Positions 4,284 to 9,608 of a DNA stretch of 64,000 nucleotides are shown here, piece by piece. Location of the stretch: the NCBI GenBank assembly GCA_028875875.1, contig JAGWUV010000001.1, forward strand, positions 1-64,000, given 5' to 3'. The position numbers and the translations under genes were made by a program. This DNA comes from Bacteroidota bacterium (GTDB lineage Bacteria; Bacteroidota; Bacteroidia; Chitinophagales; Chitinophagaceae). How positions within the stretch are numbered: position 1 is the stretch's first letter; every line of letters begins with the position of its first letter. The notes below the pieces were generated by a model. It was not told where the DNA came from and made no database searches. It saw nothing but the letters and a program-made list of their open reading frames with translations.

Positions 4284-5330
4284 TTATGACTCTTCATCAA
4301 AATAGAGTTTATAATACTGTTTACCCACCAATTCATCATATCCTTTTTCTATCAGGTCTTTACGGCCATGAATATAAACGTGGAAGTTCTTATCCAGCTT
4401 GAGCACCGATTTAAAAACCCTTTCCTGTTTTTTTACTGCGGATAAATGAATGGCAAACTCATCTTCCACCACTATCTGCTTTGCCTGCTGGTAGGTTTGT
4501 TTGTACCGGGTAAACGCATCTATTACTTCGGGGTGATGGATCACTTCCTCAGTAAATTCTTCTATCTGAAAATTATCCTTTGTTTTAAAATACTCCATGC
4601 TGCGGTTCAGCATATCTATCTGGTCGCTTTTGCTCACCTCAAATTTCTCGGCCATCTCATTACTGATAAACAGCTTGCACATACCCAACACATTATTGGT
4701 GCTGTGATAACTGTTGGAATAAGGTGTTACCTGCAAAAAGTCGTTCACCCAGTACCGGGCGTCATTTTGTTTATTGGTGGCATCCACCACGCAAACCACA
4801 TAGCCTTCTTCGCGGTTTTGCCTGAAGATCAAACATCCTTTATCAAGTTTATTGATGTTGATACCATCTTCAGCGATCACTTCCCAGCTTTGCCCATGGG
4901 GAAATACTTTCAGGAAGGTTTCCTTGGTTTCGCTTTTGAATAAGCCTATTGCGTCAACATATTCTGATCCGAAAGGCACTTGCTGAAACTGCACCACGTA
5001 TAACTCTCCTTCCTTCACTTTGGCATGGGTGCTTTTGCTGTACAGAAAATGAGCCAGTAAAGCCGATTGTGTGGTGAAGGATTTGGGGTCATCAAAAATG
5101 GCACTTACATACGTGTACACTTCATTCAGTTGCAGATCGCTGATATGGGTGAAGTGGTACTGTTCATGTTCATTGAAAGGATGCAGGAAATAACGGGTTA
5201 ACAAACCTCTTACGATCTCATCATTCAGGGTAAGCGGGTTTGCAGAAAGTTTCAGTTCTTCACCGCGGGAAGGATTACCCACTTTGTGTACCATTACCTG
5301 TTGCAGTTGAACGCTGTCGATACCTGTCAT
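4284..5330 (-). CDS. Nucleoid-associated protein, NdpA family
   Basis: 348 residues, close to the 335-residue E. coli YejK/NdpA family. The N-terminus (MTGIDSVQLQQVMVHKVGN) and the conserved FTHISDLQLNEVY and YSKSTHAKVKEGELYVV stretches are typical of the 37-kDa nucleoid-associated proteins. Members are cytoplasmic and co-purify with the nucleoid; the biochemical role is poorly defined. No signal peptide or membrane segment is present. It lies 50 bp downstream of the ABC transmembrane gene on the same strand and could be read from the same transcript, though no functional link is evident. Confidence 0.88.
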   Translation of the reverse strand: MTGIDSVQLQQVMVHKVGNPSRGEELKLSANPLTLNDEIVRGLLTRYFLHPFNEHEQYHFTHISDLQLNEVYTYVSAIFDDPKSFTTQSALLAHFLYSKSTHAKVKEGELYVVQFQQVPFGSEYVDAIGLFKSETKETFLKVFPHGQSWEVIAEDGININKLDKGCLIFRQNREEGYVVCVVDATNKQNDARYWVNDFLQVTPYSNSYHSTNNVLGMCKLFISNEMAEKFEVSKSDQIDMLNRSMEYFKTKDNFQIEEFTEEVIHHPEVIDAFTRYKQTYQQAKQIVVEDEFAIHLSAVKKQERVFKSVLKLDKNFHVYIHGRKDLIEKGYDELVGKQYYKLYFDEES

Positions 5331-5380: not shown

Positions 5381-6277
5381 TTATTCGTTCACCACTTTCA
5401 AATCGGGCTCACGGTCAAAGTCTTCACTCTCCAGATCGATCCGCCGGGTAATATCTCCCAAAGAAGTCAGGCGCTGAACGGTGTAAGGAATGGTATCTAA
5501 ACCACCGGCAAACTTGAGGATATAGTTGTAAATACCGATGATATCACCGGCCGCCATGGCAGCACCGGAAATTTTATGGGTAACAAGTAACGAAAGACCT
5601 ATTACCAACATTACCATCAGTTCCATGATGCCGAAGTTCCAGGCTTCCTGGTCGGATATTTTGATCTGCCATAAACGTAAACGGCCATAATGCCTGCGGA
5701 TGGCCAGGTGATTACCCGAAGCAATGATATCTACCTGTTGTTCCAGCTCATCATTCTTCATTTGGTTCAGGTGCCTCATCTTCCTGCCATAGAAATAACT
5801 GATTGCCATTACCGGCAGTAATATGGCCAAACAAATACCTACCACTTTTTTATCGTAGAAATAGAGCAGTACCAATGAACCCAGTAAATTGTAAACAGCT
5901 TCCAGTACATAAATCAGGTCGTACTCCAGGAAATCAACAAATTCCCTGGCCAGCGTAGAGTGGGCACTCAGCTTTGAAATATCTGAAATGCCGTAGCGGC
6001 GTGACAGGAATTTGGTAACCAAAGATGTATAAATGGAAGAATAAGTACGGGTATCGTAGCGCTGGCGGATGGTTCCTACAACAATCCAGGCCAGATGAAC
6101 AGCGCAAAGGATAACCAGGCCGGTATAACTCCCTTTGATCAGGCCGTTCACAGCCTCTCCCAGGAAAAAGGGACGCAGCAGCGAACCTGTCATCTCCAGT
6201 GAAAATAAAATATAGGTAAGCATCAGCTGGCGGCGATGCTTTTGAAAAATAGCCCTGAATATCGTCATCTTCGGCAT
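5381..6277 (-). CDS. ABC transporter six-transmembrane-domain protein lacking an ATPase domain
   Basis: 298 residues covering only the membrane half of a type-I exporter: hydrophobic helices near residues 15-35, 50-70, 125-160 and 215-260. There is no Walker A, LSGGQ or Walker B motif, and the protein stops where the linker to a nucleotide-binding domain would begin (LESEDFDREPDLKVVNE). Such stand-alone six-TM proteins are a known annotation class in Bacteroidota, so this need not be a broken gene. It follows the SET/ATP-grasp operon after 169 bp on the same strand and could export its product with an ATPase encoded elsewhere, but this is speculation. Confidence 0.82.
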   Translation of the reverse strand: MPKMTIFRAIFQKHRRQLMLTYILFSLEMTGSLLRPFFLGEAVNGLIKGSYTGLVILCAVHLAWIVVGTIRQRYDTRTYSSIYTSLVTKFLSRRYGISDISKLSAHSTLAREFVDFLEYDLIYVLEAVYNLLGSLVLLYFYDKKVVGICLAILLPVMAISYFYGRKMRHLNQMKNDELEQQVDIIASGNHLAIRRHYGRLRLWQIKISDQEAWNFGIMELMVMLVIGLSLLVTHKISGAAMAAGDIIGIYNYILKFAGGLDTIPYTVQRLTSLGDITRRIDLESEDFDREPDLKVVNE

Positions 6278-6446: not shown

Positions 6447-7862
6447 TTATTTTGTGAAAGTTTTGATGGCATTGCCGGTTTTACCGGTAATAGTTCCGCG
6501 GCAGAGGGGAGAACCACACTGACAATCAAAGGGTTCTGATTTTTCATCTAAGAAAGTTCCATAATCTAAGGTAAGTTCTTCGCCTTTGTTAATATTTCGC
6601 AAGGCGATAACGTTCAACCCGGAATAGCCGGTATTCGGATCGCAGGAATGGTTTTGCGGTGCCCATTCGGCAGGGTTGGCATCCCATAAAATATATACTT
6701 CGGGGCTGATGGGGTAGGCATACCTGCGGAAATTTTCTTTGGCCTTTTCATCCCAGTGCTCTTCCACGTATCTACGGGTAACCATACGCTGGGCACGTTC
6801 CTCCCCTTTAAAAATTACTTCTCCCTGCTGTATGTTTTCAACAGCATAAATACCGTATCCCGCAATAGCATTGCCCTGCACTTTGTATTTTTTCTGACGG
6901 CGACAGTGGCGGGCCGTCCCTTCTTCAACAATATGTCTCAAAAAACCGGTCTGGCCAATGCCATCGAACTGAAGAATATAATCGGCAGAGCCTTCATAAC
7001 CATTGGTATAAAAAACAGAACAGGTAAAATTGATCTCGAGAAAGAAGAGTTCTCCTTTTTCATTCAGCCTGAAATCCATCCTTGCATACCCTACGCCGCC
7101 AAAAGCGGTGAATATTTGTTGAGCCGCCTCTTTTAACTGATTACTAAGTGCAGCATTGCTTACAGGAATATTGGCATCAGTATGTAGTTCTGATGTTTTG
7201 AGAGCATAGGTTTTAAAGCTGTTGCCTTGCGGGAAAATGAATTCAACGGGTTGGAAAGCAGTACAGGTTTTACCATCTGCATTCGCTGCCACCAATACCG
7301 TAAACTCTCTTCCGGCGATATATTCTTCTATTAGTATTTCATCGTATGCGCCGACGAGTTGCTGTACTTTACTGGCTAAGGCATTTTGATCCTGAACCAG
7401 CGAGTGTTCATCCACGCCCAGGCTATCTCCCGCTTTGGCGGGCTTTATAAAAAGAGGAAACTGTAAATGACTACAAGCGGAATAGATCTCTTCTGTGGAA
7501 TACACCACTGCATACGCCGGTGTTTTTACGCCTTCGCAGAAAGCTACATACTTCATCAGTTCTTTGGGAGGATCGTACAAGAGTGCAGAAGGACCGGTGT
7601 GTGGTAAGTTGAGTAATTCTAACGTATAGATCACATCAATGGAAGGCACTTCCCATTCGAGGTAGCCTTCACAAAGATTTACAAACACATCATAGTTGTT
7701 TTTCTGTAGCGCTTTGAGTTGTTTGTAAGTGGTTAGTTTATTCAGGAAAACATGATCTATAGTGGCTTCCGGCCACAAAGCGGATAAGTTCCTCGGAGGA
7801 TCGTAGTATTGGTAATCTACCGCTGATGTTGAATAATCGGGTTGAAGCACACAGATTCTCAT
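6447..7862 (-). CDS. ATP-grasp ligase fused to a SET-domain methyltransferase
   Basis: 471 residues in two domains. Residues 1-310 are a D-Ala-D-Ala-ligase-type ATP-grasp: PLFIKPAKAGDSLGVDEHS (ATP lid), IEEYIAGREFTVLVAA and ARMDFRLNEKGELFFLEINF (metal-binding Asp/Glu/Asn). Residues about 322-462 are a SET domain with GYGIYAVENIQQGEVIF, NHSCDPNTGY (AdoMet-binding NHSC), ELTLDYGTF and a post-SET zinc motif DCQCGSPLCRG. The known chemistries are carboxylate-amine ligation and Lys/N-methyl transfer; whether they act on one substrate is unknown. Its ATG overlaps the TGA of the upstream ATP-grasp gene by 4 nt (ATGA), which implies translational coupling. No signal peptide, so cytoplasmic. Confidence 0.92.
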   Translation of the reverse strand: MRICVLQPDYSTSAVDYQYYDPPRNLSALWPEATIDHVFLNKLTTYKQLKALQKNNYDVFVNLCEGYLEWEVPSIDVIYTLELLNLPHTGPSALLYDPPKELMKYVAFCEGVKTPAYAVVYSTEEIYSACSHLQFPLFIKPAKAGDSLGVDEHSLVQDQNALASKVQQLVGAYDEILIEEYIAGREFTVLVAANADGKTCTAFQPVEFIFPQGNSFKTYALKTSELHTDANIPVSNAALSNQLKEAAQQIFTAFGGVGYARMDFRLNEKGELFFLEINFTCSVFYTNGYEGSADYILQFDGIGQTGFLRHIVEEGTARHCRRQKKYKVQGNAIAGYGIYAVENIQQGEVIFKGEERAQRMVTRRYVEEHWDEKAKENFRRYAYPISPEVYILWDANPAEWAPQNHSCDPNTGYSGLNVIALRNINKGEELTLDYGTFLDEKSEPFDCQCGSPLCRGTITGKTGNAIKTFTK

Positions 7863-8986
7863 GCAGCAAACAGGTCTTTAGCTGAAGAAAGATTTTTCCG
7901 TTCAAAAGCATCCAGTAATATATGTTCAATCAGTTGTGTAAAAGTGTTACCGCTTAAACGAAGTATTGCTCCGATAGAGGTGTAGTTCTCATCTTCACTC
8001 AAACCGCACTGGGCATTTACTTCCAGTACGTATAATTTACCGGTTTGCACATCCATCCGCAGGTCTACCCTTGTATAGCCCTTACCCTTTACAGCAGCAT
8101 ATGCATCCCAGCTAATTTGTTTGATCTGCTCCAGCAGTTCTTCTGCAGGAGTTACGTATTCATAAAAATTGGCATTGCCCGGCATAGGTGTTTCTTCTTC
8201 GTAGATTTCCCAAAGACGATCGAATGATAAAAACTTTTCTGTATCAGGTAGAGAAGGATGGAACACTCTTTCCACAGGAGGATAAATAATGGCTTTTTCC
8301 GGCTGGTTGTAAGAGCCGGCGATGAGTGTCGTAAATTCAGGCCCCGTTATAAACTGTTCTGCAATAATTCCGTCGGTAGCCAACTGCCAGCCCCGGTATC
8401 CTTCAAACATTCTTTCTACCTGTTGCCATAATGCTTCTTCCGTATCTACCACATTTTTAATACCCACTCCCATACTGCCACCAGAAACAGAAGGTTTTAC
8501 AATTACGGGTTTTCCTAACTTCTCCAATAAACGGCCCGGCCTTTGGGCAGGATTGATGATAGCCCTCCACTTGGCTGTTGGAACACCTGCTGCATCGAAA
8601 GCCCTCTTCATTGATATTTTAGAAGTGGTAACATGATAAAAATATTCATCAGCCCCGCAATAGATCAAATCATGTTCTTCCAGCATACGCACTACTGAAA
8701 TACCAGGTGTACCATTCACTTCATCACCATCACATAAATTCAATACCACAGGTATTTTTTTTCCACTATTCTTTTCCCTTACGATGGCAGCAATCACTTC
8801 TTTATAATCCTGCATGGTTACAGGCTGCCATTTCCATTGCAATTGTAATGCTGCAAAGGTTTTAGTGTATTCAGCAATGCTTTGGGTAAAATCGTAATAA
8901 TATTCAATGTTCGGATCAGTAGTATGTACATAAGGGGCCAGTACCCAAATAAAAAGCTGTTGTTTATGCTGAAGAACGGAAGCCAT
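7859..8986 (-). CDS. D-Ala-D-Ala-ligase-like ATP-grasp protein
   Basis: 375 residues forming a single ATP-grasp ligase. Visible motifs are KPVIVKPSVSGGSMGVGIKN (ATP-binding loop), AEQFITGPEFTTLI and YTRVDLRMD...LYVLEVNAQCG, the last carrying the Mg-binding acidic residues and Asn. The N-terminus (LFIWVLAPYVHTTDPNIEYYYDF) is not that of true Ddl, and neighbours are not cell-wall genes, so it is more likely a specialised amino-acid or peptide ligase than ddlA. It lies 11 bp after the SET gene and overlaps the ATP-grasp-SET fusion gene by 4 nt, in the middle of a tight three-gene operon. ATG start at 8986. Confidence 0.9.
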   Translation of the reverse strand: MASVLQHKQQLFIWVLAPYVHTTDPNIEYYYDFTQSIAEYTKTFAALQLQWKWQPVTMQDYKEVIAAIVREKNSGKKIPVVLNLCDGDEVNGTPGISVVRMLEEHDLIYCGADEYFYHVTTSKISMKRAFDAAGVPTAKWRAIINPAQRPGRLLEKLGKPVIVKPSVSGGSMGVGIKNVVDTEEALWQQVERMFEGYRGWQLATDGIIAEQFITGPEFTTLIAGSYNQPEKAIIYPPVERVFHPSLPDTEKFLSFDRLWEIYEEETPMPGNANFYEYVTPAEELLEQIKQISWDAYAAVKGKGYTRVDLRMDVQTGKLYVLEVNAQCGLSEDENYTSIGAILRLSGNTFTQLIEHILLDAFERKNLSSAKDLFAA

Positions 8987-8997
8987 AATAGCAGGTT

Positions 8998-9498
8998 TTA
9001 TTGATGACGGCTTTGCATTTGCTGTTGTATGAATGAGGTAAGCCGGTATTGATTTAAAATATCATCCGGTAAATAATAGGCTCCTTGTATTTCATGTAAA
9101 CAGTTTTCAGCGCCACACAAGCAATGAAAGGGCTGTGCCATTTTCCATTCGGTAGAAGGATAGAAAAAGGTAAGTTCATCTTCAGGCTCAATCTTTTTTA
9201 TACATACCAATTGCATCGTATTGGTATCAAAGAAAACATTGGGCGAACAACTATGATTAATGTACTGCAGGTATTCCGGAAAAAGCGTAATGTGAGTATG
9301 CATCGCTGTTTGAACGGTTAAATAAGAAGGCTCTCTGAATATTTCTTTAGCACTGAAAGCGGAGAGCATTTCTCCCGGCTCAAAAAGCCTGTTGCTGTGC
9401 AGTGATTTCTGTTGGGTGGATGTATTTTCCCTTACTTCAAAGAAAGAAAAATGTGCAAGGCTTGTATACCCAACAGCGGTTAATGTTTGTGTAAGCAT
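8998..9498 (-). CDS. Stand-alone SET-domain protein
   Basis: 166 residues from the ATG at 9498; a TTG at 9525 in frame would add nine residues, but ATG is preferred and the SET fold does not need the extension. The core motifs are YINHSCSPNVFFD (AdoMet and active-site loop), EDELTFFYPSTEW (the usual ELTYDY position) and a post-SET Cys group FHCLCGAENCL. The known family role is AdoMet-dependent methylation of lysine or a related amine; the substrate here is unknown. First gene of the operon with two ATP-grasp genes; a hairpin terminator at 9609-9659 separates it from the YHS lipoprotein gene. Confidence 0.88.
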   Translation of the reverse strand: MLTQTLTAVGYTSLAHFSFFEVRENTSTQQKSLHSNRLFEPGEMLSAFSAKEIFREPSYLTVQTAMHTHITLFPEYLQYINHSCSPNVFFDTNTMQLVCIKKIEPEDELTFFYPSTEWKMAQPFHCLCGAENCLHEIQGAYYLPDDILNQYRLTSFIQQQMQSRHQ

Positions 9499-9608
9499 AC
9501 CATACAGAGCCCTGTACAGAGCCAAAGTTTAATGGGTTAGTAATTATAACCTGTAATTTAACTATAATATGCTGTACTAACTACTGCGGCGTAGATTAAA
9601 TAATGCAC

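Follow-up and report, generated by a model that had tools for sequence, protein, structure and literature searches.

The stretch of DNA analysed here (the window) comprises 64,000 nucleotides of a Bacteroidota bacterium of the family Chitinophagaceae (contig JAGWUV010000001.1, assembly GCA_028875875.1) and carries on its minus strand three tightly packed genes encoding, in this order, a standalone SET methyltransferase (SET), an ATP-grasp ligase similar to D-alanine-D-alanine ligase (Ddl), here called GRASP, and a protein in which both kinds of domain are fused (FUS). The gene for a membrane protein follows 169 bases downstream. The features of this operon and the gene downstream of it, all within open reading frames (ORFs), are as follows.

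8998..9498, minus strand: SET, standalone SET methyltransferase of 166 amino acids (aa), BurB-like (Pfam SET; BurB comparisons)
9247-9258, minus strand: NHSC motif of the standalone SET
7859..8986, minus strand: GRASP, Ddl-like ATP-grasp ligase of 375 aa (Pfam Dala_Dala_lig_C; residues invariant)
6447..7862, minus strand: FUS, ATP-grasp-SET fusion of 471 aa (Pfam Dala_Dala_lig_C and SET in one ORF)
6915..7862, minus strand: ATP-grasp part of FUS, residues ~1-316 (profile positions 80-279 align to Ddl structures)
6477..6887, minus strand: SET and post-SET part of FUS, residues ~326-462 (Pfam SET at 335-435)
6642-6653, minus strand: NHSC motif of the SET part of FUS
5381..6277, minus strand: ABC_membrane_3 protein of 298 aa, fourth operon gene (Pfam PF13748, 139.7 bits)
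4284-5330, minus strand: homologue of the 37-kD nucleoid-associated protein (NA37), directly downstream of the operon

The three ORFs were recovered where the initial annotation, made from the letters alone, had placed them. The mechanically predicted ORF of SET opens at a TTG at 9525, and the ATG at 9498 that the annotation had chosen is the start column for eight of ten homologues, the other two starting one column after it; the ATGA by which GRASP and FUS were said to overlap lies at 7859-7862. Pfam assigns SET domains to the standalone protein (35.2 bits) and to FUS (47.4 bits; cut-off 22.4), and Dala_Dala_lig_C domains to GRASP (68.2 bits) and FUS (86.2 bits; cut-off 24).

The distribution of the system was studied in 244 genomes of the window's family, with profile thresholds of E 1e-50 for GRASP, 1e-30 for FUS and 1e-15 for SET. 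The GRASP and FUS profiles match the same 74 genomes; in one of them (G132) the FUS match is a GRASP alone at a contig end, which leaves FUS proper in 73. The standalone SET was detected in 71 genomes, namely 70 of the 74 and one other (G134), and it is present on another contig or far away in G117, G021, G092, G219, G167, G053 and G202. The system is patchy (37 of 101 genera), and GRASP was not found in 170 of the 244 genomes. Loci with flanks were available for 70 of the 73 FUS genes (G094, G155 and G189 were left out). At every one of the 70, GRASP shares the strand of FUS and is at most a few ORFs away from it; the two genes are directly adjacent at 65 loci and are separated by predicted ORFs or an inserted gene at the rest. 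At a stricter threshold GRASP was scored in 69 of the 70, L200 holding a fragment at a contig end. SET stands on the same strand beside the pair at 60 of the 70 loci. A reverse-strand ABC ATPase-like gene splits GRASP from FUS at L084 8143-9135 and at the same place in L189 (G066, G206). Moreover, a contig scan with FUS, run on a single genome for each species and sensitive to close relatives alone, returned 13 relatives titled Chitinophagaceae, Sediminibacterium, Terrimonas, Sphingobacteriales and Bacteroidetes, with GRASP upstream in 12 and SET upstream of GRASP in ten; two of the 13 lie on short contigs (L015, L016), and the FUS gene of L017 is cut off by the contig end. Conservation of the neighbourhood beyond this genome, on which the initial annotation had made its proposal depend, is borne out by these co-occurrences, and the operon is a real conserved system, beyond chance.

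Versions of the system also occur outside the family. A class sample of 295 genomes (E 1e-60) contained FUS in the window's own family only (four genomes), and a phylum sample of 395 genomes contained full-length FUS in five genomes of the family, in G448 (family f28), G447 (f24) and G572 (f54), and in nine genomes of genus g148 (f18); full-length homologues therefore span five families, the window's and four others. In genus g148, SET adjoins FUS in eight of nine loci, the ninth lying at a contig end. Four wider loci show an independent architecture, in which SET and FUS are accompanied by a full ABC exporter and an additional, small SET; the last two were identified by Pfam at one locus and placed by clustering at the others. 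This short SET of 118-120 aa at the end of the operon (L075 12727-13089, L076 11756-12112, L077 5812-6174, L078 5926-6282) is related to the standalone and BurB-like SETs and is a third methyltransferase of the system. The GRASP profile picks up FUS alone in the g148 genomes of these four loci and in G265, G447 and G572. All three genes are present in G448, with SET-GRASP and FUS at two separate places, while G447 and G572 possess FUS and the standalone SET was not found in them. The FUS gene of G447 adjoins a gamma-glutamyltranspeptidase gene on the same strand (L073 10294-12099). The core of the system is thus FUS, whether or not SET accompanies it, and a transporter-type protein was added to this core at least twice.

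Residue conservation was read from alignments of 11 rows each, with the standalone SET numbered from the TTG at 9525. Invariant in all rows are N90, H91, S92, C93, Y122 and C135/C137/C142 of the standalone SET, R306, D308, E322 and N324 of GRASP, and, in FUS, R261, D263, E276 and N278 of the ATP-grasp part together with N404, H405, C407, Y434 and C447/C449/C454 of the SET part. The third letter of the FUS motif NHSC, a Ser, is His in three of the 11 rows; FUS shares 63-69% identity with its ten aligned homologues. In the Ddl and SET literature, the conserved Arg/acid/Asn and Tyr/Cys positions are metal, catalytic and zinc residues. The hallmarks of protein-lysine SET enzymes (NHSC, Tyr, post-SET Cys) are therefore kept in both SETs, bar that Ser, and those of Ddl (ATP-grasp fold, active-site-type residues) in both ligases. 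Hence the motifs that the initial annotation had seen in the four domains are intact by Pfam and by the alignments, and the loss of catalytic residues in homologues, which it had named as fatal to its proposal, is not observed in the aligned rows.

The nearest solved relative of the standalone SET is BurB (structures 9L4T and 9L4V), an enzyme that converts free methionine to S-methylmethionine in vitro (PMC7496086, PMC12542666). Searched against the PDB, the single sequence scores 54.6 bits with BurB and 24.1 with the next solved structure, and the profile 66.8 and 36.3 bits, respectively. The AlphaFold model of SET (mean predicted local distance difference test score, pLDDT, 85) likewise has BurB as its top Foldseek match (E 2.8e-9), followed by ASH1L (2e-5). 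For one control SET of the phylum, KMT2D scored 64.8 bits and BurB did not appear among the best 60 of 149 rows, which suggests, from this one control, that SETs of the phylum do not in general stand close to BurB. SET domains as such are not rare there, at least one being present in 59 of 118 genomes at E 1e-4, and the rarity that the initial annotation had attributed to them in bacteria does not apply to this phylum. In the SET tree the standalone SETs of the window's family, f28 and f18 form one clade (support 100/98), and the SET domains of FUS another (98/99). The window's genome encodes a third short SET protein outside the clades of the system (G000:C23:10949-11245, L120). By alignment, T73 and Y124 of BurB are kept in the window SET and S88 is replaced by L. 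BurB is described as contacting methionine via the main chain (PMC12542666), so that side chains say little.

Ten records of a plasmid collection contain a relative of the standalone SET, and five of them were inspected. The relative from Eleftheria lies in a bur-like cluster with polyketide synthase (PKS), aminotransferase and aldehyde dehydrogenase genes, that from Sphingomonas overlaps a gene annotated as diaminopimelate decarboxylase, and a third adjoins an S-adenosylmethionine decarboxylase gene, so that three of the five stand among small-molecule enzymes; the other two are less clear.

As regards the ligases, the two score 94.9 and 84.9 bits with the curated NCBIfam Ddl model TIGR01205 (cut-off 245.65), which is passed by the genome's own Ddl on another contig (283.8 bits). 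The solved relatives listed for the ligase parts are of Ddl or Van type, apart from weak BacD and purine-ligase matches, and the Pfam matches of either ligase include no TTL family. GRASP and the ATP-grasp part of FUS share 29% identity and in the ATP-grasp tree they form clades separate from each other and from ATP-grasp pairs linked to aminomutase genes (GRASP clade support 94/79). Given this divergence and the separate clades of the two SET types, the repeated parts did not arise by a recent duplication, and a simple duplication of both partners, as read by the initial annotation, is not supported as the origin of the set.

No match of GRASP was found in the plasmid collection at E 1e-15. 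The sole relative of FUS there at that threshold is an ATP-grasp ligase on a conjugative plasmid of Thioflavicoccus mobilis (L153 3485-8966), next to genes for SbnA, ornithine cyclodeaminase, diaminobutyrate transaminase and a KamA-type radical SAM protein; the genes at this place include diaminopropionate-forming ones. The related ATP-grasp pairs found elsewhere in the phylum adjoin a lysine 2,3-aminomutase-like gene in nine of ten loci and a GNAT gene in nine of ten. All four genes of this cluster, that is two Ddl-like ATP-grasps, GNAT and the aminomutase-like gene, are present in eight of the ten, all from other families (L086, L088, L089, L094, L102, L105, L106 and L109), and a RecG-type helicase gene lies near the pair in L086-L088 (by Pfam for L088, and by clustering). 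This cluster looks like a further uncharacterised ligation pathway, which perhaps acts on beta-lysine. Taken together, the ATP-grasp neighbourhoods hint at amino acids, perhaps diamino acids, as substrates. The aminomutase link was not used as proof that lysine is the substrate, the tree leaving the kinship of GRASP, FUS and the pairs unresolved.

The membrane protein gene adjoins FUS, downstream, in 26 of the 70 family loci. Its profile (E 1e-40) matches 30 of the 244 family genomes, distributed over 18 genera and not independent of one another, and all 30 also contain GRASP. Because every carrier lies among the 74 GRASP genomes, the ABC_membrane_3 protein is dedicated to the system. A profile comparison with the g148 exporter, made from a shallow alignment, showed no homology (probability 0.2%), and the two transporter types are therefore treated as separately recruited. 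Other neighbours recur as well: gene clustering of the 70 loci gave clusters present in up to 25 loci, and the 25 largest, judged by eye from their sequence starts, appear to include a helicase, MnmG, YbeY, NadD, a ChrA-type transporter, a FeoA-type protein and SSB. These look like markers of a mostly shared chromosomal site, not like partners. Pfam analysis of ten genes beside the cassette at six loci, mostly without the membrane gene, revealed nothing recurrent.

From these data, the operon is probably a dedicated pathway for a small, methylated, ATP-grasp-ligated peptide-like metabolite which is moved across the membrane. Such a pathway would be independent of nonribosomal peptide synthetases (NRPS). 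The standalone SET would methylate a free amino acid, either methionine to S-methylmethionine as in BurB chemistry or another one by a similar side-chain methylation. The ATP-grasp parts of GRASP and FUS would then convert carboxylates to acyl phosphates and so make one or two amide bonds. The fused SET domain would attach another methyl group to whichever substrate or product FUS holds, and the adjacent ABC-type membrane protein would transport the product, or else a precursor of it, through the membrane. The candidate substrates are methionine, lysine and other diamino acids; as first intermediate, S-methylmethionine is the likeliest single compound, proposed here only tentatively. It is about as likely as not that FUS is a bifunctional methyl-ligase, a single chain whose SET domain and peptide ligase work on one small substrate, the former methylating and the latter joining it.

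The initial annotation had left the choice between a peptide-like molecule and a methylated protein tail, with a putative two-step assembly and an amine as the putative methyl acceptor. A small-molecule product is favoured and the protein tail has lost ground, because the standalone SET is BurB-like, the partner is of transporter type, and relatives of both halves of the system stand in metabolite neighbourhoods. The gene set, its co-occurrence, the intact motifs, the BurB-like standalone SET and the dedicated membrane partner are observed features; from them we infer the free amino-acid substrate, the order of the steps, the numbers of bonds and methyl groups, and export.

Several observations weigh against this interpretation. 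The comparison with BurB uses one control SET, and BurB is the only short bacterial SET among the solved structures in the rows listed, so the likeness may be that of a broader family whose members have other substrates. The SETs of the system and the plasmid BurB-like SETs form separate supported clades whose sister relation the tree does not resolve, and M132 and R133 of BurB correspond by alignment to A130 and Q131 of the window SET; because the clades are separate and the pocket residues differ in part, the protein is called BurB-like and not BurB. The SET domain of FUS has no clear preference, its single sequence scoring higher with MLL1 than with BurB (41.2 vs 34.5 bits) and its profile the reverse (BurB 48.4 vs MLL1 44.9 bits). 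A weak RimK-family match was also obtained for GRASP (29.5 bits, cut-off 143.4). The structure prediction of the fusion that the initial annotation had recommended did yield a model, built on an alignment of 11 rows, whose mean pLDDT of 69 is too weak for the domain interface to be read. As for transport, the membrane gene was missed in 44 of the 74 system genomes at E 1e-40 and the Pfam matches of its product include no ATPase domain, which makes transport a matter of deduction.

The main rival explanation is that the system tags proteins, the ATP-grasps adding amino acids to a protein tail or side chain and the SETs methylating lysines of the protein or the added tail. SET and ATP-grasp folds (TTL, RimK) act on proteins elsewhere, and human TTLL12 is described as uniting SET-like and TTL-like domains (PMC3520985). 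The nearly equal matches of the FUS SET domain to MLL1 and BurB and the RimK-family match of GRASP, far under its cut-off, leave this explanation open. What weakens it is that the standalone SET, far closer to an enzyme that methylates a free amino acid than to the listed histone methyltransferases, does not belong to the protein type, that no candidate target protein was recognised, by eye and from sequence starts, among the recurring neighbours, and that a transporter-type partner fits it poorly. In addition, the ligases match Ddl best and lack the TTL family among their Pfam matches. We consider protein tagging unlikely.

Somewhat less likely again is an internal osmolyte or storage dipeptide, made by the same chemistry and kept in the cell, with the membrane protein acting as importer or sensor. 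S-methylmethionine is reported as a precursor of dimethylsulfoniopropionate (DMSP), an osmolyte (PMC12542666), which would suit such a product. The ATP-grasp pairs that stand beside lysine 2,3-aminomutase and GNAT genes in other Bacteroidota point in the same direction; their loci resemble the genes for the osmolyte N-acetyl-beta-lysine. However, the tree does not make the window ATP-grasps sisters of those pairs, the g148 version has a full ABC transporter with the domain layout of an exporter, and no other osmolyte gene was recognised by eye among the recurring neighbours. A cell-wall variant, in which the two ligases produce an altered D-Ala-D-X terminus of peptidoglycan that the SETs methylate, would agree with the Ddl- and Van-type solved relatives and is nevertheless highly improbable: it was set aside since both ligases miss the curated Ddl cut-off and the genome has a separate Ddl that passes it, and, furthermore, GRASP was not found in most of the family's sampled genomes, nor could a mur gene be recognised by eye among the recurring neighbours. 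A role in anti-phage defence was dropped, none of the PADLOC families matching the four operon proteins at E 0.01.

With respect to novelty, the open-licence PMC papers searched yielded nothing on SET domain, ATP-grasp, D-alanine ligase and Bacteroidetes together, and no report on a bacterial SET and ATP-grasp pair; a 2009 amidoligase survey lies outside this scope. No characterised pathway with this set appeared among the matches listed, which agrees with the initial annotation, whose author could name none. The parts are of known kinds, and their combination appears undescribed, an earlier prediction in the amidoligase survey being possible. According to the 2020 BurB paper, all methyltransferases found before BurB to modify natural products belonged to class I or III (PMC7496086). 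Here, 74 of the 244 sampled family genomes link peptide ligases with a BurB-like SET and with a second, ligase-fused SET, and FUS is present in four other families. If the proposed pathway is correct, a common, small and easily reconstituted pathway would be added to SET chemistry, a function would be predicted for proteins that carry the domain names of protein-lysine methyltransferases or D-Ala ligases, and there would be a new metabolite to find. Should FUS prove to be a methyl-ligase, the operon would be a new class of natural-product pathway in which SETs, usually regarded as chromatin enzymes and best known from histone modification, serve as routine tailoring enzymes of ATP-grasp peptides.

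Among known systems, Ddl and Van ligases share with the window ligases the fold, the ATP-grasp profile and the Arg/acid/Asn residues; they differ in that the window ligases score well below the curated cut-offs and one of them is fused to a SET domain. Comparable in organisation are DdaF of dapdiamide, TabS of tabtoxin and Cp1B of E-64 biosynthesis, standalone ATP-grasp enzymes that form amide bonds within small gene sets (PMC12568646). For dapdiamide and E-64, the ATP-grasp enzyme is paired with an amide bond synthetase, and the passages concerned mention no SET methyltransferase (PMC12568646). The operon shows the traits of such ATP-grasp small-peptide pathways, namely a free-standing ligase in a small conserved set with tailoring genes, and a transport gene in only 30 of the 74 genomes. 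BurB, from the malleicyprol/DMSP pathway, resembles the window SET as a short standalone protein with the HSC motif, the Tyr and the post-SET Cys, and by alignment the two have in common T73, Q75, H81, P85, Y124 and the STE126-128 stretch (BurB numbering). They differ at M132, R133 and S88 and in their clades, and BurB works with a decarboxylase, an aminotransferase, a dehydrogenase and an NRPS-PKS (PMC7496086), whereas the partners in the window are ATP-grasp ligases. Finally, the only other protein joining SET-like and ATP-grasp-type domains found in the open-licence PMC papers searched is human TTLL12 (PMC3520985), from which FUS is distinguished by its intact motifs and its Ddl-like ligase.

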